A stretch of DNA of 64,000 nt from contig JAPEHQ010000013.1 of the NCBI GenBank assembly GCA_027405735.1, forward strand, positions 868,001 through 932,000, written 5' to 3'. Shown here in pieces: positions 19,941 through 33,315 of the stretch (position 1 is its first letter; every line of letters starts with the position of its first letter). Below the pieces are notes generated by a model. The model was not told where the DNA came from and made no database searches. It was given only the letters and a program-made list of their open reading frames with translations. The stretch comes from Mucor racemosus. Taxonomy: Eukaryota; Mucoromycota; Mucoromycetes; Mucorales; Mucoraceae. A program made the position numbers and the translations under genes.

Positions 19941-20770
19941 CCTGGAAATGAAGCACTAGCATTTAAAACGTTGTAAAACTCTTACGAATGGTTTTCTTTT
20001 TAAGGAAATATAGAAGAAAAGCATTACGTTTGACAGTTTCCTCTTTTAGATATAATAATCTGCTGATATAGTGTTGCGATAAGAAGTTATTAATTCACTT
20101 GCACAAATGTTTATGCACTACAGTTTGACCCATATTGCAGTTTATGAATAAATCATTTTTCGGCGTTGTCCATTGAGGAGGATCAGTATCATTCCCTTCT
20201 GTAAATTATTACTTTATTATCTTTAGTTTAATTTACTTTTATTTTTCAAGTTTTTATCGTTCTTAACATTTATATTATATCTTCAAATCTCACATCTTAG
20301 TTGCGCGCGCATCTTCGGTAGGACCTCCCACTCTTACTGTAAACGGATCAATCAATAAGCACAATTTAAAAAAAAAATTCGACGTTGATGTGATCAAATG
20401 ATTTATAAATATATCACAATCTAGAGCCGAGATCGTTGAGAAAAGATATACCATATTTAAATCAAATTTATACTCTACTTCCATGAAAAAACTGTAATAA
20501 AATCGGTTTAGATACAGAGGCAGTTTTTTGATAAGGTCAGCAAGAGTATTTATTTTAAATCAATAGCAATGTACTAACCTTTTATTTTTCATATTTCTCT
20601 ATATTAATCCTCCTTTGTTGTTGATTTCATTTATAAAAATACCAAATTTGTTTTTGGTAGTACTGGCTCTCCCCAAAACAAAATGAACTTACTCAATGGT
20701 AATGCTTTTTCTTGCAAAAAATAAATTACCAGAGATTTAATAGCATGCTACATAGTACATCTATACTATA
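19941..20770. other. Intergenic, nothing recognised
   Basis: AT-rich upstream DNA of the SDR gene. A short GC-richer patch (TTGCGCGCGCATCTTCGG near 20301-20318) stands out but has no assignable function. Confidence 0.4.
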
Positions 20771-20953
20771 TTAATTTAAATCTACCGCGTTAAAGCCATG
20801 TAAGAATCCTTTAAAGATGTGTAAATCAATTTTGCTGCTGCTGCTGCTGCTGTTTTCATATTCAATCACCGCTTGTCCATTTCTTTTGTTGGACGTCAAT
20901 TTGATGAATTTTGAACATCCAAAATAGTTTTCGATAGTTTTCTCAAAAACCAC
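20771..20953 (-). pseudogene. Orphan exon with RRM-like character
   Basis: A 60-codon open stretch with the pattern ENYFGCSKFIKL, then RNGQAVIEYEN, then a Ser tract from a GCT/AGC trinucleotide repeat, then GFLHGFNAVDL. The N-Q-A-V-I-E-Y strand after a basic loop resembles the RNP1 strand of RNA-recognition motifs. No partner exons were found, so it is either a relic or the last exon of an unresolved gene. Confidence 0.25.
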
Positions 20954-21890
20954 TTTATAAAGTAGGCAATGCCTAATAATAAAAAATTATACGTCTTTTG
21001 ATGGCGGTTTTAATGATGCAACTTGTGCCCATTTTTCTCACTAAAAGTATTAAATGAAATTCAAAAATGTAAAATGAGGTTTTTGCCAAAAACGTCGCGT
21101 TTCTCAATAAACGAAATCAAAATAAATGTTTCTACATGAAAGGGTGAGAAATTCTGATTATTTTGATCTTAGAAATGTCATATTTAATTTGTCATTTTCG
21201 GCCCGAAAATCCCGAAAGAGCGATTTGAAGTGATTTTCCCTTATGACCCCTCATGAAAAATGGTCGAAACTCGAAACATTTTTCGATGGATCCAAAAATA
21301 CAAGAAAATGCAATACAAAGCAGCCATGAGTTGTAGATGGTAATTGGTAGTAATTTCTCGATCCAGAAACGCCCAAAAACCAAAAAAACAGACTATTAAA
21401 ATTACTAAATTTAGGCATTTTCAAGCACAAAATTGCATATTCAAAGCTATTTACTTGATGAAACATATAATAATGTTTGATATTTTTATAACTCTCACGG
21501 TCAGTAAACATGCATACAACAATGTACGTACATTTTTAATATGCTTTACAATAACTAAATTTGTTAAAAATCCTATGATTTGAGGATTTTCATTGTGTCT
21601 GTGTTTTTGCAAGCGACTTTTATTTATGCATAAAACTCTGAGCATATGTAAATGTATAGTAGATATTTAATATTTAATATTTTAAATAAACGTCATGTAA
21701 CTGTAAGATTTATGCAAAGGAATTTCTAGTAAATGTTTATTAATATTTACCGCTATAAGGGTTTCAGACGCTTGAGGTAAATGTTACTCTAAATTGAATT
21801 AATTTGATACAATTACCGAGAAAATACTAAAAATTAAAAAATACATGATCTACATACAATGTTAAATTAATATAAGATATTATTCGGTAT
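20954..21890. other. Repeat-like AT-rich DNA
   Basis: Stretches such as GCCCGAAAATCCCGAAAG and AAACGCCCAAAAACC have the same texture as the non-coding repeats near 38.6, 54.6 and 59.9 kb, but I could not align a full copy by eye. No gene was seen. Confidence 0.35.
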
Positions 21891-21898
21891 CTTCACCC

Positions 21899-22044
21899 TG
21901 AGACTCAACCAGACTCAAGGTATTTTCTATCTGACTTCGAAATTAAGCAGTGAAATTGAAAAATTAAAAAGTATTTTTGAGTCACCCGCTTAAAATATTA
22001 AAAATACCTTTCGAAATACCTCGTTTCTGTGAGTCTCAGACTCA
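21899..22044. other. Cluster of GAGTC/GACTC motifs with a perfect palindrome
   Basis: The pentamer GAGTC or its complement occurs repeatedly in 150 bp (TGAGACTCAACCAGACTCAA at 21899; TGAGTCAC near 21978). The cluster ends in a 15-bp perfect palindrome TGAGTCTCAGACTCA at 22030-22044. It lies just left of the Crypton-type recombinase gene, where element-end binding sites could be expected. That role is inferred. Confidence 0.4.
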
Positions 22045-22238
22045 TAATAATTGTTTTCCCGAAAATTCGCTTATTGGTTCCCTAAAATCGGTTCCTGGAA
22101 CAAATCCGAAAAAAGAGCTATTTGACATCTGTCTTCTTTTTTTTTTTTCCTTTTATCAATTCTTCTGATAATTTTAACAACACGAATACTCAGCAAAACA
22201 ACAACACCTCTAGCTCTAACGAGCAAGGAATTCGACGT

Positions 22239-24382
22239 ATGATTGATAATAACGTTGCAATGCACCGTAGTAACCAGATGGTACTTGCCGAAAGTATGAT
22301 CCAACGTCCTATCAACACTATAAAAGCTTATTCTGCAAAACAGACTGAGTGGAAGGTATGTACAGTTGTGCAATAATGTATGTACCAAAGTAACTAACCC
22401 TCTTATATTACTTTTTGTATAGCAAAAGCAATGGTGCCATGGAAAAGAATTCGGCGATGGTGAATGTGTAACTGACGCAAAGCTCAGTTTTTTCTTGAAT
22501 GATTTTGTTACTACTCGCGGGCGTAAGTTGAGAAAAAATGCAGATGGTACAGCCATTCCCTTAGGAAAAGAATCTGTTCTCAGTTATGTTAAGGCTGTCT
22601 CTGATTTGTGTACAACACAGAAGGCATTAGGTTCGAATCCAAACGGTGTAGCTCCGGGCCCTCTTGTACGAACTTTTATTGATACTCTTGAAAAAAACGA
22701 GCTCAGAGTAAAGAAATGCATTTGAAGACAGAGGCAAGAACACTCTAAATGATGGCTATAGCAAAATTGAATTGGAAAAAATTAGCTGCTACTTTTTGAA
22801 TGAAAAAAACAGCCCACTTGGATCCAGAGATAGATTATGCTTTCTTCTTAGTCACTCGATGCTTTGTCGTAGCCAAACAACTCTTGGAATGCAGTTTGCC
22901 GACTTGTTTTCACTTAAGATTGAGAATCAAGGTGTCACTGAGTGTGTGTCTCTTGTTACCACGATAACTTTAGGAAAAACTAATCAACACGGAAAGATCG
23001 AATATGGTTCCGCTGTAAGACACCGCCAAGTTGAAGTCTGTTCCGTTGGTGCTCTTGCTATAAATCTTTTCTCGAGATTTCATTATGAAAATGAGCCATT
23101 CCCAGATTTTACAAGTCGTGACAGATGGTATGAAACTTGTGTTGTGAAAGGTGATGACCCATTTACTCCAGTTCATTACAGTACTCAATACAAGGCTTAC
23201 ACCGAAGCATTCAAAAGAGTTGGTATCAGTACTTCAAAGGTAACCCACGCCAATCGTAAGAGTGCATTGAATATGATTGCACAGGAAGATGTAGAAGGTG
23301 ATCAGCAAAGAAGAGTTGAAAGGTGGGGAACTGATCGTATGGTAGGCTGCTATGTTTCAAGCCTTCCAGTTGAGGCTATGAAAAGCCTGGCCGGCTTTTC
23401 AGGTCGCAATGTTAACTATTTCTTGACTCGAACCTCTGTTATTCCACCAATGAGTCTTCAAGTGCTTATCTTCCCTGACATTGAGTACTGGCAAGATAAA
23501 TTCAAGAACAATGATGGCGTTCAGGAGGATATTGCTGGTCCAAATTTTTTGCTCTTGCTTTCTTATTTGCGTGTTTTCTTTTTGCAAGTAAGTGTATTTT
23601 TGTATATTTTCTCGAATAATTGATTTTATTTATGTGTTAATCACCCAAATATTTTGTAATAGGATTCTGTTGCCTTAAAGAAAGCTCACCCAGATTACTA
23701 CCTTTGGAGCTGTAGCTTGTTTCAAACCGAATTATATAAAAACTTTGAACAGCAACTTCTCTCAGCTTTGCAAGAAGAAGAAAGTCTATTTAACGCAAGC
23801 CAAATGATACAAAGGGCAATGCCAGAATTAGTATCAACACTGGAATCAGGCTTTAGTTTGATGGCTGCATCTATGCAAGCTATGAGTACCTCACATTCAG
23901 CAGAACTTCAAAAATTAAACAAGCCATGGTCTGAAATTTTTGCCCTTGGAAATGCATTTTTCAATCAAGGCGATGGCTCTTTGCACATTCCTTCGAATAA
24001 CTCTGTTCGGAACACAATCGACACTGCTGCTAGCCTACCAACAGCATCTCATTTAACAACATACAAGCTCAACAGAACAATTGTCACTGTGACAGATGTC
24101 TGGAGAGAATATGCCAATGGGTTGTGTGGAGGTCCTTCTGTGGAATATTTGGAGAAGGAATTGGAACTTCTTGGAGAAAAGATAGAAAAGAATCACGTTT
24201 TTTTAGTCGCAGAAACGAATTATACAAAGCTATCAAAAGTAAAGCAGATGCAGAACGCACTTCGTGTGAAGAAGCTGCTCGTAGAATTTAAGAAAGAAGA
24301 GCATTTCTTTGTATATCTCTTGACAAGCTACGTTCTGTTATTAAAGACGACAGCCTTAACACCTCAAATTAGCTTTCTCTAA
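22239..24382 (+). pseudogene. Crypton-type tyrosine recombinase, frameshifted
   Basis: Three segments: frame open to 22355 (first ATG at 22239; the 5' end is unresolved), 22423-23587 and 23663-24382, with two good introns. The product has Crypton organisation. An N-terminal SAM-like part (NTIKAYSAKQTEWKQ, VTDAKLSFFL) is followed by a catalytic part with an Arg in MLCRSQTTLG, HANRKSAL as the H-x-x-R box and a Tyr in MVGCYVSSLP. It continues with AGFSGR and a late FPDIEYW segment, and ends with a C-terminal GCR1_C-type DNA-binding region (VTDVWREYANGLCGGPSVEYLE). Two frame breaks are visible. At about 22717 the reading must skip one base to reach AFEDRGKNTL. At about 24161-24163 a shift is needed to enter SWRKDRKES, FFSRRNELYKAIKSK and AARRI, which end at 24291; the unshifted frame reads on as unrelated sequence to 24382. 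Cryptons integrate and excise through a circular intermediate using this enzyme. This copy is probably inactive. It sits upstream of and parallel to a Fanzor-like gene. Confidence 0.85.
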
Positions 24383-25077
24383 CATCCTCCCGTTTTTTTA
24401 AAAAAAACCTCCATAAATAAAAATATAAATACTATTAGACACCTATATATGCAATACTATTGTTTCTCAAATCCCCTACTAAGGCTACTTGTTTATTTGA
24501 AGTTTTTTTTTTTTTGGGAAAAGATTTGACCAAACCAACTAAACTAACCTACAACTTTGTCATTACTTGCCAATCTACTTACAAGACATCATCTTTTTCA
24601 ATATTTGCAAATTAGCAACAAAACTAACTTTGATTGTCAACCTGTTGCTCTCAAACATATTATATGTCGTAAAAAAAGATGTAAGCGACTCCCATGTCTT
24701 TAATTGTGTCCCAACGTTGCCTTCAATATTGATCATATTGTACAGTATTTTAACTCGAATAAATAAAATTAGAAACCTAAATTTAAATTCAGCCAATCAA
24801 AGCTCTTGAATTGCTTCATCTATTTCTAAATATGGAAGTCAACGAATGTCTAATACCAAAAATTAAGTGGATGAAACTGAATTTATTCAGTGTTTGACTG
24901 AGTAACGCTCATAAAAACCAGGAAAAATTTCAATAAAAAATAATAAATTCTGGAAGTAAAACTCTATCATGAACCTTTCAAGCTTAATCTAATATTAATA
25001 TTTGATTTTTTTTATTAAATAACTTAATATTTAACTCTGATTTGTACTTTCAGTTATAATACATTTTATTATGTATT
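24383..25077. other. Spacer between recombinase and Fanzor-like gene
   Basis: AT-rich, with no exon seen. It contains a T13-type run near 24502-24514. Whether this belongs to one composite mobile element cannot be decided from one copy. Confidence 0.4.
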
Positions 25078-25330
25078 ATTCCCCCTTGGGGAAAGCAAGT
25101 GTTTCACTTTTAAAGCCTTTATACTCGCTGAGAAATCAACATTGATAGAAATAACTTTTTTGGCAATATTCTGTAGAATCTCAAGTATAGCCTTGCATTT
25201 TTTATTTTCTGATTATCCATTGAAATAGGTGCACGCTCCGATTTTGAATCTGACCATATAAAATTATATATTATGCAGATATTTACACTTGACTGAGCTT
25301 AAATCCACATCTGCCAAATGCATTTTATTT
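25078..25330 (-). repeat. Dispersed repeat fragment, inverted relative to 41.4 kb copy
   Basis: Read on the minus strand, this block (ATTCAAAATCGGAGCGTGC, GATTTCTCAGCGAGTATAAA, AAGTGAAACACTTGCTTT) aligns over about 240 bp with 41345-41575 and with 52485-52695 on the plus strand, at roughly 85% by eye. It splits the interval between the recombinase and the Fanzor-like gene. Confidence 0.8.
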
Positions 25331-25675
25331 TCACTGTTTGTATCGACATCGTAGACACTATGACTCAAACTCATCTGAAAGGGGAGAAAACTTAAACTAT
25401 TTTGATTGATAGCTCAGTACAGAGAAATCTTTGTTAGTTATTGCATATAAATACATATAATTGATTATTAATAAAGTCTTTAATTGACTATCCAATACAG
25501 CAATTTGCTAGACATTTCCATTGAACCTAATTTATCAATTCGATTGTTATCAATGCCAATTTAACATTTAATATAACAGGACTGCGCCTTTAAAGCTGTT
25601 TATTATGTACGAGCACAATATTTGAGCCCTCTTTCTTTTCTTTATCTTGTTATAACATATACATTATTATTCAAA
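25331..25675. other. 5' flank of the Fanzor-like gene
   Basis: About 345 bp, AT-rich. The proximal part has a CTCTTTCTTTTCTTTATCTT pyrimidine run immediately before the start codon. No clear TATA box was seen. Confidence 0.4.
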
Positions 25676-28600
25676 ATGAGAAGAAGAAAAAGACAATTAG
25701 ATGTTTATATTTCAGGCACAACCACCATAAACCCTCCAGCCTCATTTGAAGATGATGGCCAAGGATGTCGTAATAGGAAGCGTTTAACATCCTATGACAA
25801 AGCAAACCACATGAGTGCTTTAGAAGCTCAATTCAAGATTAGACTTGTAAACTCAATCGAGCAATGTAAAGACCAGAAATATGATAAACTTTACGAGATT
25901 CTTCTGAAAGGTATAAGACTTCCCAAGGGTGTGGTAACTAATGCTGCAGCAAGTATCAATGTCGATGCTGCTTCTATTGAATCATTTTTGAAAAATGAGT
26001 GTAAGAAAACAAAGAAAAAGAGCGTAGAATACTGGACAGATTTTGTTCGAAAAAACTTCGTCACCACAAAGCACTCTATTTTGAACAATGAAGCAAGTAC
26101 ATCATCTACTGACAACAGAAGAGATGATGATGATGATGACGATAGTAATGATGATAGTAATGATGATATGGATGAAGATGAAGATGTCGATGATGAAGAT
26201 ATCGGTGAATATGAAGACAGCACGCAGTACAGAGCCTGCTCTACTTCTCTTCGATCAGTGCTTCGATCAGACTTATCTCAACAAGTTCAATCATTGTTTG
26301 CAAGTACTATAAACGAAAACATGCAATCTGTCTCAGACTATATATCTGATTTTAGTAATCAAATCTTCAAAATGATTCTCGTATTCAATGAATATAATTT
26401 TGTCTTGGAAAATCACGCTGTGTCACTTGTCGCTCATGAGGGCAACAAGATATCTCAAGTCTTGCCTGAAGGGTACTTGGAAGAAGATGCTTCAGTTGCT
26501 AAACCCTTGGATCCTAACTGTTTAGAAGATGAAGACTTCAAGGTCAACTACAACAAACTGTTTCAAGACTCACATCTGGAACTCATTCATTCGACATTCT
26601 ATGGTGCAAAGGGTGCCCAAGACTCGTCGTTGAAGACACATATTCTTCATAAAGTAATAGTAGATGTATTGGGTCGTGATGAAGTAAACATCTACAAAGA
26701 CTTATCTTCACACGTGACAAAGATGGCTCGCCAGTTGTATTACATCAATTTTCATAAAATGTGGTCAGACAACACCATCGTGAACAAACTGCTGACAAGG
26801 CTCTTGCGATTCCTCTTAATAATACATCTTTGCCCTGATCAAGATAATGATTTCAAGGCTAACAAGGCGAAACATCAGAATAAAGGCAAAAAAGCAACGA
26901 GAAGGGTTACTAACTGCAGAATACCAGAGGAACGTATCTCTTTGTTACGTATGACCAGGAATGGAAGAAGAAGGCTGTTTGCTAATGAGGAAAAGAAACG
27001 AATCAAGTACTTACAAAAGGGAAAAGAGTTATCTGCAAGTTTGTGCCAGAGGAGATTAGACACATACAGACAAGCACTTGAAAGAGAGGTAAACATGCTT
27101 CAACTTTGAATATTACAAGAGCATTAAATAACATTTTGTGTTATTCATGTAGCGTGAAGAGAGGGATTCTGGTTGGAAAGAAAACCCGAAAAATAAGAGA
27201 GGACGAAAGGATGACAATGATGATGATGATGATGATGATGATATAGAGGATGCTTTAGTTAGAGATGATATCAATGTTGAAAAGACCAAGGATACTCCCA
27301 GAAGAAGGATTGGACAATTGTTACAAGTAACAAGATCAGCATTATTTCAAACACAAACGGTTACAAGACGCTATTTTGAAATGAAGCTCAAGAGCCTTGA
27401 CGACAAAGAATATGAGACAATCATAAAGATAGTGAATTTCGTAAAGCCTTATATACCAGATAAAGATAACTATCATCTCTTTCAATATCAGGTCCCATTT
27501 GTCTTGATGGCAAATCAAGTGTTACGATCAATTGGATACGATGGTCAAGTTGTGAAATTAATGCCAATTATCAAACCGACTGCTCTCCACTCCTTCCTTG
27601 TTGATACAACAACGCTTTATGCGCTCTTTTGCTCAAAACAATGCAGACAAAGAATGTTTGTTTTGGATTTCAAAGGCAACCGTCTCAAACAAGGTTCAGC
27701 TCTTGCTAATAAAGATGCTGTCTTTAGCGCATTTTTCAATATTGATCAACTAAAAAAGATATCGTCAAGCTACGGACTAGAGTTTGCAAATAGAATCCAC
27801 ATTCTTCCTGGACTGAAGACTATCAGAATATATGGCACAGTAGATTATATTCAACAACGTCAGAAAAAGCCAAAAGCAATCAATAAATCAATAGCTCAGG
27901 ATGAGGATGACAGATTAAAGGCTTTGAATAATCGTAAATCTGATTTGGAGACGTTGTTTAAGGAACGAAGAAAAGAACTGGATCAGTTTATTTTGACAAC
28001 CAAGAGTGTTCGTGCTTCGAAAAGAGATTGGAAAAACAAGGTAGCAGATCGAAACAAGTACTATCGTGAAGTTGAAATGACAAAGTTGAAAAAGAGGGAA
28101 TTAATGATTGGTATTCGTGATGTACGACAAGATCTTCAATCATTAAAACGACAAATATCCGAATATCGAAACCCCTCAACTTCTTTAACATCGACTACAT
28201 CACCGAACCCATTTATTATCAACAGAAAACCTTGTCATAAAAAGATCGAAGAATGTATGCTTGATACTGACGTGGATTTAGATGATGTAGTATTCTGTGG
28301 AACTGACAATGGCATCATCAAGACTACTGAGACAGTTTATTTTGATATCAATCGATTTACATTCCATTTAGAGCTATACAATCGATTCCAAATCTTAGGT
28401 AATATGACACAATAGCCCTTAAGTACATACAAGGTAAAACTAATCTATACGCTTATCAATGTTAGAGGATGCCATGGATACAGACGATGTGTACAATTTG
28501 GAATGCATGAAACTGCCTCTTTCTCTCACGATCGGTCCAAAGGAAATCAATCAAGGTAGTGGGTTGGCTTCATATACCAAATCAATTGCTCAAAAGAAAA

Positions 28601-29304
28601 AGTCGACAATAGAAGGACATGTGGTCTTGGACGAAGAAGAGAAGTTATCAAATCACAACTTACATCAATGCCAAACAGTTGAAGAGTTACAAGAAGCAAT
28701 CTCTCATCACTGCAATGCTCGTGACAAATTGCGTTCGTTTTATTACAGCAATTCGCAGTGTAAACAGAGACGAAGATTGGAATTGAAGAAGAGAAGATTT
28801 TACGACAAGTTGGCAGCAGATGAAAGAAAAACCTCTGGAGCTAAAAGGCCTATTATGATGATTGGTGACCGTGGACACGGTAAAGGCTCACGTATAAAGA
28901 AGCATCAGAGATTTGGCGGGCACTGGAAAGAGTCAAGACATGGTCTTTATACACCTACCCTTATCACGAATGAGTACAATAGCTCTCAGACATGTCTCTT
29001 CTGCTACTCCAAGCTTTCTCATCCTGTTGGTGTTGTTGCTGGTAAAATCAAGACTGTCAATGGTTCGTTTATATGTCTCAATCAAAAATGCCCAAATGCA
29101 TTTAAAGTGGTGTGTCGGGACCAGGTATCGGCGTTGGCTATTGGTTTGGCTGGTGTGGCCCAACTTCTTTTTGGTGTCACTTTTCCTTGTTTTGATGAAA
29201 AGTCAAATTATACAAATCGAATCAAGTTCAATGATTTAGCCCTTGATTTTCTGTACAGGAAACAACGAATGGGCTCGCCGCTTGATGGCGGTAATACTCT
29301 TTGA
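25676..29304 (+). CDS. Fanzor-like protein (eukaryotic TnpB homologue, putative RNA-guided nuclease)
   Basis: Three exons, 25676-27088, 27153-28398 and 28466-29304 (introns 64 and 67 nt), give an intact 1,165-residue protein. The N-terminal third is basic (MRRRKRQ) with an Asp/Glu tract near residues 155-185, then helical sequence and a second Asp tract. The C-terminal third has the RuvC/zinc-ribbon layout of TnpB and Fanzor proteins. RuvC-I is VVFCGTDNGI with Asp856. A G-rich segment IGDRGHGKGSRIKKHQRFGG starts near residue 1018. Glu1056 sits in TNEYNSSQTC, the relocated RuvC-II glutamate described for Fanzors. The zinc ribbon is CLFC plus CLNQKC, and RuvC-III is CRDQVSALAIGLAG with Asp1105. 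Fanzors are RNA-guided DNA endonucleases, often carried by eukaryotic transposons, with the guide RNA usually encoded around the 3' end of the gene. The intron at 28399-28465 removes an in-frame stop and joins LYNRFQIL to EDAMDTDD. The ATG at 25676 is the first in frame; a non-ATG codon upstream was ignored. The intact frame contrasts with the broken recombinase upstream. It could be an element-borne or a domesticated gene. Confidence 0.8.
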
Positions 29305-29762
29305 GGTAGGTAATACATAGCTTATATAGAATGATGTACTAAATATTACTTACTCTTCAAACCCTTTTTCAAATCAAATTATTTTTATTGGTACGTAATC
29401 AATTTATACTCTTTTTATGCAATGGACTAACCAGACTCCCAATTGCTTCTTTTGGACACATAAGTTAATATACCATTACAGTATATATCTATATAATGAT
29501 ATCACCAATAATAATCATCATCATTCTTATCATCATCAAGACGAAAACATATCGTCACTTATTTTGCAAATGCATGAAATAGAAAAGGTACAAATAAAAA
29601 TAGAGCTAAATTAAAAATACGTTATAAAATACATCATTGCCTTTTTACTACTGTTTATTTTTCGCTGTGATGCTATAATGCAAAATGAAGAAACAGTGTA
29701 GCTATAAAAGGCAATCATTTTATGATGACAGAATGACTGAAGCTAGAAATACCCAAATTTAA
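29305..29762. other. 3' flank of the Fanzor-like gene, candidate guide-RNA region
   Basis: This stretch separates the Fanzor-like gene from the HAM1-like gene. In characterised Fanzor loci the omega RNA overlaps or follows the 3' end of the gene and extends to the element end. Nothing diagnostic is visible here beyond a small GC stem at 29275-29290 (CGCC, 7-nt loop, GGCG) overlapping the last codons, and CCAGACTC at 29431-29438, which also occurs at 21909-21916. I make no firm call. Confidence 0.3.
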
Positions 29763-29770
29763 TATAAAAA
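29763..29770 (+). promoter_or_regulatory. TATA box of the HAM1-like gene
   Basis: TATAAAAA 72 bp upstream of the ATG at 29835, a typical core-promoter distance. Confidence 0.55.
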
Positions 29771-29834
29771 GGATGAAAGAAACTCGACAAAACAGATCGC
29801 TTTTAATATAACAACTTTTAAAAATAACTTAATC

Positions 29835-32800
29835 ATGACTACACATCAACAACCTCAGCAAAATTTACATCAACAACCTCAGCAAAATTTACATCAACAA
29901 CCTCAGCAAAATTTACATCAACAACCAAACAAGAATAATTTACCTTTGAGTGAAACTAATCCTCAAGCAGCTAAACAAAAGGCCGCTGATGAAAAGCTAC
30001 AATTACTCGGTACATTTCAAGCTATGCAAAGAGATGGAAGAATGCCCCATAATCCTCAATTAGATGATTTGTTGGGTAAATTAATGACAAATAAGATTAT
30101 TTCTTCAAGAGAACATTTAATGTCTGAAGATGGAAGACTCTTGTTGAAGGATTTCCGTAAATTGATCGGCACTGCTCAGAAAGCTTTGTCTGTCAAAAAT
30201 AAGGATGAACTGTTCCAATCTCTTGTATACCATCTTCATTGTATGGAAAGCCCTCTCAATAAAGGTAAACAAAAGATACCAAGTTTATCAAAATACGATT
30301 ACTGATTAGTTTATTTTAGACCACATCAATCAACAAGTGAAATCTACTGATCAAAATGCAATGCAAAATGAAGGAAAGAAGGGTAATTTGTGAAACAAAA
30401 CTTACGATTAATTTCTTGATCTGACCAAGTATTTACATGTAGGATCTGAATCTTTAATGAAGATCGGCAAACTTATCCTCCTCAATAATGAATTCCGTTC
30501 TGTGTTGGGCGAACTTATTGATATCTCACAAGATATTTTCAACAGTGTTGCTGGAAAGGCTGGTCAATCTCTCCAACAAGCTGGATCTGGCCTTCAAGAT
30601 CAAAACAACAACGGCGGAGGCAAATCTGGCAAACACTTTGTAGATAATGCTCTTGACAGTGCACTGAACAATAATAACAATAATGCTCAACCTCGTAACA
30701 ATACCCAATCTTCGTCCTCTACCTATCATGACCGTGAGCCTCATCTCGTCAATGCATCCAAGGATGACCCTCGCCATCAAGGTCTTTTGAATACTGGTGA
30801 TTCTGTTCATCCTAGTGCTATACCTGGTGGATTTCCTACTGAACAAGGTGGCGGAATTCTTGGTGATTATCAGCATCAACAAAACGCTCCTCAGGTGCCT
30901 CCTCATCATACACCTCCATTTGATGATAATGTTGATTCTCATACTGCTCACAATATGAGTGGACAACAACCTCAACAAAACTATTCTGAGCAGATTCAAA
31001 ACCATCCCAAGTATCAAAAAGCTCAAGATCATTTGAATGATCACAAGCAATTTGCTCAAGGCACTGTCAAGGAGAACCTTCCCAAGGAAAAGCAAGATGA
31101 ACTCTTAGGTCGTCTTCAAGATGCTCTTGCTGAGGTTCAGCAAAATCCTGATTACCAAGATGCTATTAGCACCCTTATTCAATTGATCAAGGTTTGGTCT
31201 TCTCGTTTGACAAAGATTTCTGAAGGTGTTATGTCCAAGGCCAAGGAAAATGACAAACCCGAACAAATGAACTACAGAGAGCAATCTGAAAAGGAACTCA
31301 AGGCTATCATTGAATGTTGGGCTCAAGGTGAATCTATTGATCCTTTACTCCATGGTGTTCAAGATGTCATGCATGATATGCAAAACGATGATCAACTTCG
31401 TGATTATTACCATACAGTGATGAGATATGCTGATCGCTTATTGAGAGAGCCTGGCTATGCTCAAAAGGATAAATCAACTGACGAAGGAAGAGAACTCATG
31501 GATAAAGGCAACCATCTTATCAAGGGTCGTTATAAAGAACATCTCAACTTTTTGTCATCTGAATCTCGCAAGTACATGAACTTGATGGCTGAAGATGAAG
31601 TTTCAAAGGAACTTCATGCAAGAATTGCCAAGATTCATCGTGATTTATGGATGGACAAGGAAGGCAATCCTGCTTTCAAGCCTCAACTTTTGAATGATAT
31701 GAGAATGACTTTGCTCCCTGCTTTTATTGATGAGATCAAGTATATCCCTATTCCTCGTATTGAATACAGCGATCCTCAATATGATATCATTATTGAAAAT
31801 CTTATTCTTTCTGGTGATACTTTACTTCCCAATACCTTTGATTCCAAGATTGAAAGCTTCAATAGTTTCAGTCTCAAGTCTGATATCGAGTCCAAGCCTA
31901 GCCATCAATCCTTATTTATTCGTATGAGTGAAATCCAAGCTGAAATTGACGATGTTGTATTCTCTTACAAGAAGAAGACTGGCTTCCCCAAGCTATCTGA
32001 TCGTGGTGTTGCATCTCTTGTTGTCGGTGGTAGAGGTATCTCTATTGCTACTCGCATTACTACTGTCACTGATAACCCAGCAAAGACTTTCAAGGTTGCT
32101 TCTTGCAAGTGTAATGTCGATAATTTGAAGGTTAAGGTCAATGACAGCCATCACGATATCTTGTACAAGGCTATCCGTCCTTTGGTTATTGGTCAAGTAA
32201 AGAAACAAGTTGCTCGTGCCATTGAGGAAAAGATGGTCGCATTGATCAATCAACTCGATCAAAAGATTACTAAATCTATTGTCAAGACGAACCAAGATCT
32301 TCAAATGAAGGCATATGAAGCACTTCCTGAACAAGAAAAGGCTCGTTATGCTCCTCCTACTGTTTCTATGGCACGTCCTCGTCCTAGTCTTTTCTCTACA
32401 GTTGTTAGTGTTATTAACCGTAACATCAAGACCAAGGTTCAAAAGCGTAATGAAGCAAAGAGACATGGTCGTTTATCTGAAGATAGTGGTGTCAGTCATC
32501 CTCAATATGATGATCAAGAGAAGCGTCAAATCCCTGATTCTACCAAACATCATATGCCTGTAGTCAATGCTGCTTCTGGTAATATCCGTCATTCTCAACA
32601 AGGTGATGATAACATGCAACAAGACAGATCGTCTCAACATTCTGGTGGTTTACAATATCCTCAAACTAGCCACAATTTCCCTTCTGCTGCTGAAGGTGGT
32701 ATTCAACAATATCCTCAACAGACTTTTGGTAACCAACAAGAAGATCCTGCTCATGTAAAGGAACCTCATCATCAAAGACTTGATAATGTTGCTGGTATTC

Positions 32801-33315
32801 CTGAGCATCAAGGTGCTACTAATTTATCTAGCATCAATGAACCTCATCATCAACAAGGTCTCTCCAATGTTGCTGGTATTCATGAGCCTCAACAACGCGG
32901 TATTTCCAATGAACCTCTTGGTAATCAACCACAACATGGCATTTCCAACGTTGGTGGTATTCATGATCCTAGTCAACAAACACAACATGGGCTTTCTAAT
33001 GTTGCTGGTATTCACGAACCAAACTATCAACAACAAGGTATTTCCAATGTTGCTGGTATTCACGAACCAAACTATCAACAACAAGGTATTTCCAATGTTG
33101 CTGGTATCCATGAACCTGATTATCAACAGGGTTACGAACCCGGTTACACGCCTTCCAATGCTGCTTCCATGGATACAAACCGCCATAACATTGTTAGCCC
33201 TCCTGCCTCTCCTACCAAGAAGCATGATCCAAGCAACAACTTCAAATTGGCTGCCGATTTATCGAATGCTCAAAATGAGTATCAACAAAATCAACTTTCT
33301 TCAAGACAATTGTAA
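29835..33315 (+). CDS. HAM1-like fungal protein with Gln/His repeats
   Basis: Three exons, 29835-30264, 30320-30382 and 30443-33315, give 1,121 residues. After an N-terminal tandem repeat (HQQPQQNL, perfect 24-bp DNA units) comes the HAM1-like N-terminal region: AMQRDGRMPHNPQLDDLLGK, LMSEDGRLLLKDFRKLIGTA, then KLILLNNEFRSVLGELIDI. A disordered Gln/His/Asn-rich insert follows, then a long domain with HAM1-like C-terminal character (PIPRIEYSDPQYDIIIENLI, LSDRGVASLVVGGRGISI, FKVASCKCNVDNLKVKVND). This central module is considered lipid-binding-like in the broad family, which is widespread in fungi and poorly characterised. The last ~200 residues hold a tandem repeat with core ISNVAGIHEP, about six to eight degenerate copies. 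The last two are nearly identical at the DNA level. There is no signal peptide. The repeats suggest ongoing length variation at both ends. Confidence 0.8.

Follow-up and report, generated by a model that had tools for sequence, protein, structure and literature searches.

One open question is how nucleases guided by RNA have adapted, in eukaryotes, to transposases of different kinds. Crypton recombinases are listed among the partners of Fanzor1 in one sentence of the available text of PMC10711439, and the sole described Fanzor-Crypton case found by our full-text literature search, other mentions being possible, is MCi-2 of Mucor circinelloides (Bao and Jurka 2013; PMC3627910). Judged by the accessible part of its description, on which our comparison is based, MCi-2 resembles the family reported here: its Fanzor part is nearly identical between copies, whereas its 5′ regions are of several kinds, part of a Crypton recombinase is present in one subfamily, terminal inverted repeats (TIRs) cannot be recognized, and the direct repeats are made of a constant part plus variable bases. 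The repeat reads ATAATTNNNN(N) in MCi-2, as opposed to CAGTA(NNNN) in our family. The same source describes MuDR-type Fanzor elements (ROr-4, PBl-3, and MCi-4), which differ from our family by a 9-bp duplication and TIR-like ends in place of the CAGTA core. As for targeting, TnpB cuts the excision joint next to its TAM, which is the transposase target motif, and repair has been proposed to restore the element (accessible text of PMC8612924). SpuFz1 of Spizellomyces punctatus, a 633-residue protein, recognizes the TAM CATA (PMC10432273), and its element has TIRs and a putative target site duplication TA, unlike the CAGTA-ended unit described below (PMC3627910; both sources as far as available). 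The SpuFz1 TAM may thus be read as host bases plus the duplication, and Fanzor1 reRNAs are predicted to include the duplication in their scaffold (available text of PMC10711439). As far as our literature search goes, the CAGTA ends and their division into two types are new, as are the rule for the host bases, the estimate of selection, and the finding of a related Fanzor lineage in an element resembling MuDR (both ends read in one copy).

The window, i.e., the whole stretch of DNA analyzed, comprises 64,000 nucleotides of Mucor racemosus (contig JAPEHQ010000013.1, positions 868,001 to 932,000, forward strand). Its Fanzor-like gene consists of three exons, which upon splicing encode 1,165 residues followed by a single terminal stop, and of two GT...AG introns of 64 and 67 nt (Table 1). 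The exons, the residues D856, E1056, and D1105, and the four cysteines all lie where the initial annotation had placed them, within the motifs GTDNG (starting at residue 854), NEYNSSQTC (1055), CRDQ (1103), CLFC (1063), and CLNQKC (1090). Both introns that it had proposed are likewise supported by homologs. The nearest named protein, Mucor plumbeus P0001 (89% identity over 64% of the query; deposited, and itself a predicted gene model), continues without interruption across both junctions (LEREREERDSG and RFQILEDAM), and a second relative, P0004, has an insert precisely at junction 2, as expected of an unspliced intron. The relative P0002 shows a 12-column gap beside junction 1 and is therefore informative for junction 2 only.

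Table 1. Features of the composite element in the window (coordinates in window positions)
Feature	Position	Strand	Evidence or remark
Module of Crypton type (tyrosine recombinase), upstream neighbor of the Fanzor unit	21885..24742	+	Full in three copies only: window, C26, and C12
Left core of the composite element, CGGTA here (CAGTA in C26 and C12), then TCTT + CACCCTGAGACTC	21885..21889	+	C26 and C12 matches begin here
Open frame, probable N-terminal recombinase piece; frame not continued into the next piece	22423..22725	+	Frame analysis
Open frame with NDC10_II (PF16787), fungal Crypton recombinase-type domain	22712..23623	+	E 3.7e-44
Open frame with GCR1_C (PF12550), probable C-terminal recombinase part	23663..24382	+	E 1.1e-7
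Fanzor unit, 4,741 bp, CAGTA at each end	24743..29483	+	Nine module-free copies have the same two ends, each flanked by unrelated host DNA
Internal CAGTA core at the left of the Fanzor unit, then TTTT AACTCGAATAAAT	24743..24747	+	Copy comparison
Fanzor-like gene, exon 1	25676..27088	+	Splicing and translation
Fanzor-like gene, exon 2, with D856	27153..28398	+	Splicing and translation
Fanzor-like gene, exon 3 and stop; E1056, D1105, zinc ligands	28466..29304	+	Splicing and translation, copy comparison
Right end, predicted place of the guide-RNA scaffold; no significant fold	29305..29483	+	Prediction
Right CAGTA core; host DNA from 29484	29479..29483	+	Copy comparison

The Fanzor-like identity proposed in the initial annotation stands through a chain of relatives; direct searches did not recover it. 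The profile search suggested there, run with the translated model against Pfam, returned no Fanzor match, nor was any significant Fanzor obtained with the whole protein against the PDB, with the family profile against the PDB, or with the relatives and exon 3 against NCBIfam. PDB matches of the window protein were weak and fell on acidic or charged stretches (best E 0.065). PF07282 (Cas12f1-like TNB) did not match the whole protein and stayed below its cut-off of 26.3 bits throughout, with E-values of 1.0 for window exon 3, 0.085 for P0002, 0.0099 for the locus L069, and 1.6e-4 for L080. The latter, from the genome of the window, is a stepping stone: it matches the C terminus of the window protein (E 4.5e-5, 29% identity) and solved SpuFz1 (8gkh; E 5.8e-5), with DEY, the cysteines, CTNPNC, and NRD aligned, so that the glutamate just before the zinc ribbon, the CxNPxC second knuckle, and RD are shared with SpuFz1 in this alignment. 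No RuvC-I exon was recognized upstream of L080. A second route leads through the canonical Mucorales Fanzors (21 of the 43 matches of the search, alignment A4), which match SpuFz1 at E 1.4e-14. Aligned to them by hhalign, the window family scored a probability of 72.6 and a single-pair E of 3.2e-5, NEY pairing with DEF and RD with RD; the values were 34.0 and 4.3e-4 with only four sequences. Neither alignment extends to the RuvC-I aspartate, and the assignment of D856 thus rests on the motif. A profile comparison restricted to the core (probability 38.0 over 21 columns) gave a score of 29.6; the highest value among 100 column shuffles was 19.3, and the reversed control reached 10.2. This comparison omitted 7 of the 18 extracted fragments, L080 among them, and 20 of the 43 canonical matches carried the motif.

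The window protein was compared with published fingerprints. The Fanzor/TnpB motif of Bao and Jurka, D-X(125,275)-[TS][TS]XX-[C4 zinc finger]-X(5,50)-RD (PMC3627910, accessible text), is found complete: D856, 202 residues, S1059 S1060 QT, the cysteines C1063/C1066/C1090/C1095, 8 residues, and R1104 D1105. A second source, as far as available (PMC10711439), gives as Fanzor hallmarks a RuvC-II glutamate six residues before the zinc finger and, near exclusively, DPG in RuvC-I. The former is present (E1056-xxxxxx-C1063), bearing out the shifted glutamate described in the initial annotation. DPG is not, RuvC-I of the window protein reading D856-N-G, a departure that the annotation had overlooked; GTDNG is nearly invariant (90% or more) in the 11-sequence alignment A3. 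An AlphaFold2 model of P0002 built with 11 sequences was of low confidence (mean pLDDT 42.5, pTM 0.22). Given the link via relatives, the Bao-Jurka motif, the glutamate, and the absence of DPG, we file the window protein as a divergent member of the Fanzor lineage and do not count it among the canonical Fanzors; its sequence is homologous to that of a proven Fanzor only by way of intermediates, namely, L080 and the canonical Mucorales Fanzors. A second, canonical Fanzor family resides in the same genome (L001 to L004) and is closest to M. plumbeus proteins. Canonical Mucorales Fanzors share with the window family the shifted glutamate, RD, and several copies per genome, but they differ in RuvC-I (DPG in L002 to L004, DPE in L001), in scoring over the PF07282 cut-off, and in size (at most ~790 residues). 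The N-terminal half of the window protein is very long, and the spacing from D856 to E1056 amounts to 200 residues, versus 158 in SpuFz1 (D383 to E541). In the available text of PMC11423790, a RuvC insertion domain is reported only in Parasitella and Rhizopus; the D-to-E spacing of the window protein is likewise long.

What the initial annotation had missed is that the window gene belongs, as a single copy among many, to a mobile family whose ends can be defined, and that a Crypton-type module adjoins it. When the C-terminal 162 residues were searched against the 53.2-Mb genome to which the window belongs, at least 91 matches were obtained at E-values up to 0.001. Over these residues, group A comprises 13 copies 97 to 100% identical (L006 to L018, window included), a further copy stands at 86% identity, group B comprises 23 copies at 58 to 61%, and group C is a set at 44 to 47% whose frames are mostly open (~1,195 residues); the remaining matches are mostly shorter pieces. 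Across residues 527 to 1165, the 13 group A copies are free of indels, 11 of them lack stops, and pN/pS is 0.27 (121 synonymous and 121 nonsynonymous changes from the majority sequence), which confirms that the window gene is real and more than a chance open frame. The active-site residues reported as intact in the initial annotation are indeed so: D856, E1056, R1104, D1105, and the four cysteines are retained in all 13 copies. Exon 3 of 16 of the 23 group B copies is stop-free throughout, with a one-codon gap in a single copy, pN/pS of 0.22, and both E and D retained in every copy; the same active-site residues occur in both aligned relatives of group C. These patterns show purifying selection on the Fanzor-like protein, as would fit a working enzyme.

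The ends of the unit were delimited by copy comparison. Group A right ends break off sharply at window position 29483, the DNA beyond being different, and mostly read ...TATACC-GTTA-CAGTA (ATTA in the window). Nine group A copies without the recombinase module begin at window position 24743 with CAGTA (CATTA in one) and continue leftward into unrelated host DNA; their left core is followed by four variable bases and then mostly by AACTCGAATAAAT. Junctions were tabulated for 28 copies (12 of 13 in group A and 16 of 23 in group B), with both ends readable in 26. Two copies, C8b and C2h, were dropped from the junction counts because of an unreadable left end, and the group A copy at C2:1012237 (L018), whose left end is not cleanly preserved, was left out of the table. 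With a parser that sought these motifs, the right CAGTA was found in 28 of 28 copies and the left core read CAGTA in 24, CGGTA in 1, CATTA in 1, and unreadable in 2. No TIR appeared among the 25 longest inverted pairs listed for positions 20000 to 30500, so that the element combines absence of TIRs with short direct repeats at its ends, as Cryptons do. A search for empty sites with 25 joined flank pairs returned only element copies themselves among the best 40 candidates scored. To the right of the insertion lies a HAM1-like gene (PF19343, E 3.7e-104; window positions 30412 to 33315), whose probable first exon (ATG at ~29835) opens with a 24-base repeat coding QQPQQNLH and would locate the element in the upstream region of this gene. 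Elsewhere, group B left ends (L052 to L066) feature a fold-back region whose ~100-bp middle is inverted in some copies, and two copies arranged head to head at L063 (C2:1008170-1008540), one of group A and one of group B, have a recombinant left-end region in common.

NDC10_II and GCR1_C, both encoded by the upstream module, are domain types of fungal Crypton recombinases. A tyrosine recombinase with an NDC10-type domain is thus found in the three composite copies; its frame is disrupted in two of them, the window copy and C26, and for C12 the match falls into two parts, so that mobility of the unit would now depend on a recombinase acting in trans. The autonomy of a Crypton with an intact recombinase is missing accordingly from the window and C26 copies and from the nine module-free group A copies. 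An abundant 2,906-bp Crypton of the same genome (L084, C8:801000-808000; L085; L086) accounts for 39 NDC10_II matches with an unbroken 412-residue frame. It resembles the window element in its NDC10_II recombinase, its direct-repeat core, and the sharing of one core by tandem copies, several pairs of which lie ~2.9 kb apart; it differs in having no Fanzor between the ends of the copies read and in its 11-bp core, CAAAATAATAG (tandem pair read). Such tandem Cryptons could be a model for how the recombinase module and the Fanzor unit became neighbors. As mobilizer of the Fanzor unit this Crypton was rejected, its core being CAAAATAATAG and not CAGTA.

The 26 copies with two readable ends fall into two end types. 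Type 1 (16 copies; 13 of group B and 3 of group A) is preceded by host AA in 14, has TCTT as left spacer in 12, and has CTCT at the right in 12. Type 2 (10 copies; 9 of group A and 1 of group B) is preceded by host T in all 10 and has GTTA at the right in 8. End pairing deviates in the window copy (ATTA) and C12 (GTTA) within type 1, and in C21 (CTCT) and C1b (TCTC) within type 2. The four bases after the core are the same on both sides in only 5 type 1 copies. In none of the 26 copies does the host dinucleotide preceding the left core match the element dinucleotide preceding the right CAGTA, and the bases at −1 alone coincide in one. Among copies with T as the element base, the host has A at −1 in 14 and T in 1; with A as the element base, the host has T in 10 of 10 (Fisher's exact test, 3.4e-6 for 25 copies; the 26th has C and T). 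In C22, a group B copy, the left and right ends as well as the host base are of type 2. That both ends of this copy are of one type is most easily explained if the two had been joined in a circle. Tyrosine recombinase sites consist of short inverted arms around a core, and joined ends of our elements would give such arms, i.e., GTTA-cagtattt-TAAC and TCTCAG-tatcttcacc-CTGAGA.

Collectively, these data suggest, with slightly better than even confidence on our part, that a relative of Fanzors rides on a CAGTA-ended mobile unit and favors it by RNA-guided cutting of element-free sites, in which repair would then restore the element. Movement of the unit at CAGTA would be the work of a tyrosine recombinase, by now probably provided in trans. 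The transcript leaving the right end would carry host sequence beyond CAGTA as a guide, and, by the logic of SpuFz1 and Fanzor1, the TAM would comprise the left CAGTA together with the host bases that precede it, a combination restored in the empty site. A TAM containing the duplication of the element is a further likeness to SpuFz1, here on the level of prediction. As CAGTA occurs at either end, cutting would extend to the right end of the element itself unless this is told apart by the bases preceding the core. It would be spared if the differing two bases before its CAGTA serve this purpose, and the lack of any equal dinucleotide in 26 copies fits what such a TAM needs. The predicted nuclease would then cut only sites devoid of the element. 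Dozens of recent copies in one genome amount to a natural experiment with a constant core and two end types, in which host bases across copies predict both the TAM and a rule of self and nonself. If the protein does cut, the known Fanzors gain DNG as a variant of RuvC-I as well as an N-terminal half that is large and unexplored.

The same host-base pattern could equally be expected from target choice by the recombinase alone, which leads to the most serious alternative: a Fanzor-lineage protein that no longer cuts, and instead binds element ends or RNA and regulates transposition. We deem it unlikely. DNG in RuvC-I would suit it, as would right ends without a significant RNA fold in groups A and B. 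C22 also speaks for it, because its host base follows the end type and not the protein type, which is unexpected for a TAM fixed by the protein. Against it stands the retention of the active-site D, E, and D in 13 of 13 group A copies, of E and D in the 16 group B copies examined, and of this set in both aligned relatives from group C.

Still less probable, in our judgment, is movement of the units by a MuDR-type DDE transposase with 9-bp duplications and a preference for CAGTANNNN in place of a tyrosine recombinase. CAGTA plus the next four bases do match on both sides in 7 of the 10 type 2 copies (a further copy, C17, has an altered left core), but the low number of such matches in type 1, the nearly constant core, the Crypton-type recombinase in three copies, and the lack of a TIR among the 25 longest inverted pairs run counter to it. 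This alternative draws its other support from group C, which includes a Fanzor relative with an intronless 1,195-residue frame (L067/L049, C5:921000-926800; L068). In the sole copy with both ends read, its element shows a 9-bp duplication, CTGAATAAC, as well as a shared inverted motif, GCGAGTATAATA, at unequal distances from the ends, and thereby resembles the ROr-4/PBl-3/MCi-4 type, as far as the latter is described in the available text of PMC3627910. A domesticated host gene lying by chance beside transposon debris, for all its intact frame and strong conservation, is very improbable and was rejected, since it is refuted for the family by dozens of closely similar copies, all sharply delimited and flanked by unrelated DNA.

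Returning to the reading in which the protein cuts element-free sites, a broader scenario can be outlined, which we consider less likely than not. A separate lineage of very large, DNG-type Fanzors may have moved between MuDR-type and Crypton-type carriers. In its CAGTA form, recombinase and nuclease would share the five-base core, with the two host bases marking the target and the two element bases before the right core marking self.

Right-end RNAs were folded at ten lengths each for two group A copies (A_L013 and A_W) and one group B copy (B_L020), and none was better than shuffled sequences (z −1.2 to +1.7). Rfam gave no match in the window at gathering thresholds. The group C right end (L068, one copy) ranged from z +0.4 to −4.1, with the strongest value at 100 nt; its last 100 to 120 nt fold into a hairpin that terminates precisely where the element does, with z values of −4.1 and −3.9 that weaken at other lengths. 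Finally, a splice donor-like GTAAGT or GTAGGT directly follows the stop codon in groups A and B (CTCTTTGAG|GTRRGT; window positions 29295 to 29320 and ~1998 in L020), and GTAAGT also occurs just past the coding end in group C (~181 in L049, immediately downstream of the L067 frame). These signals would allow for a terminal intron whose end lies close to the right end of the element.
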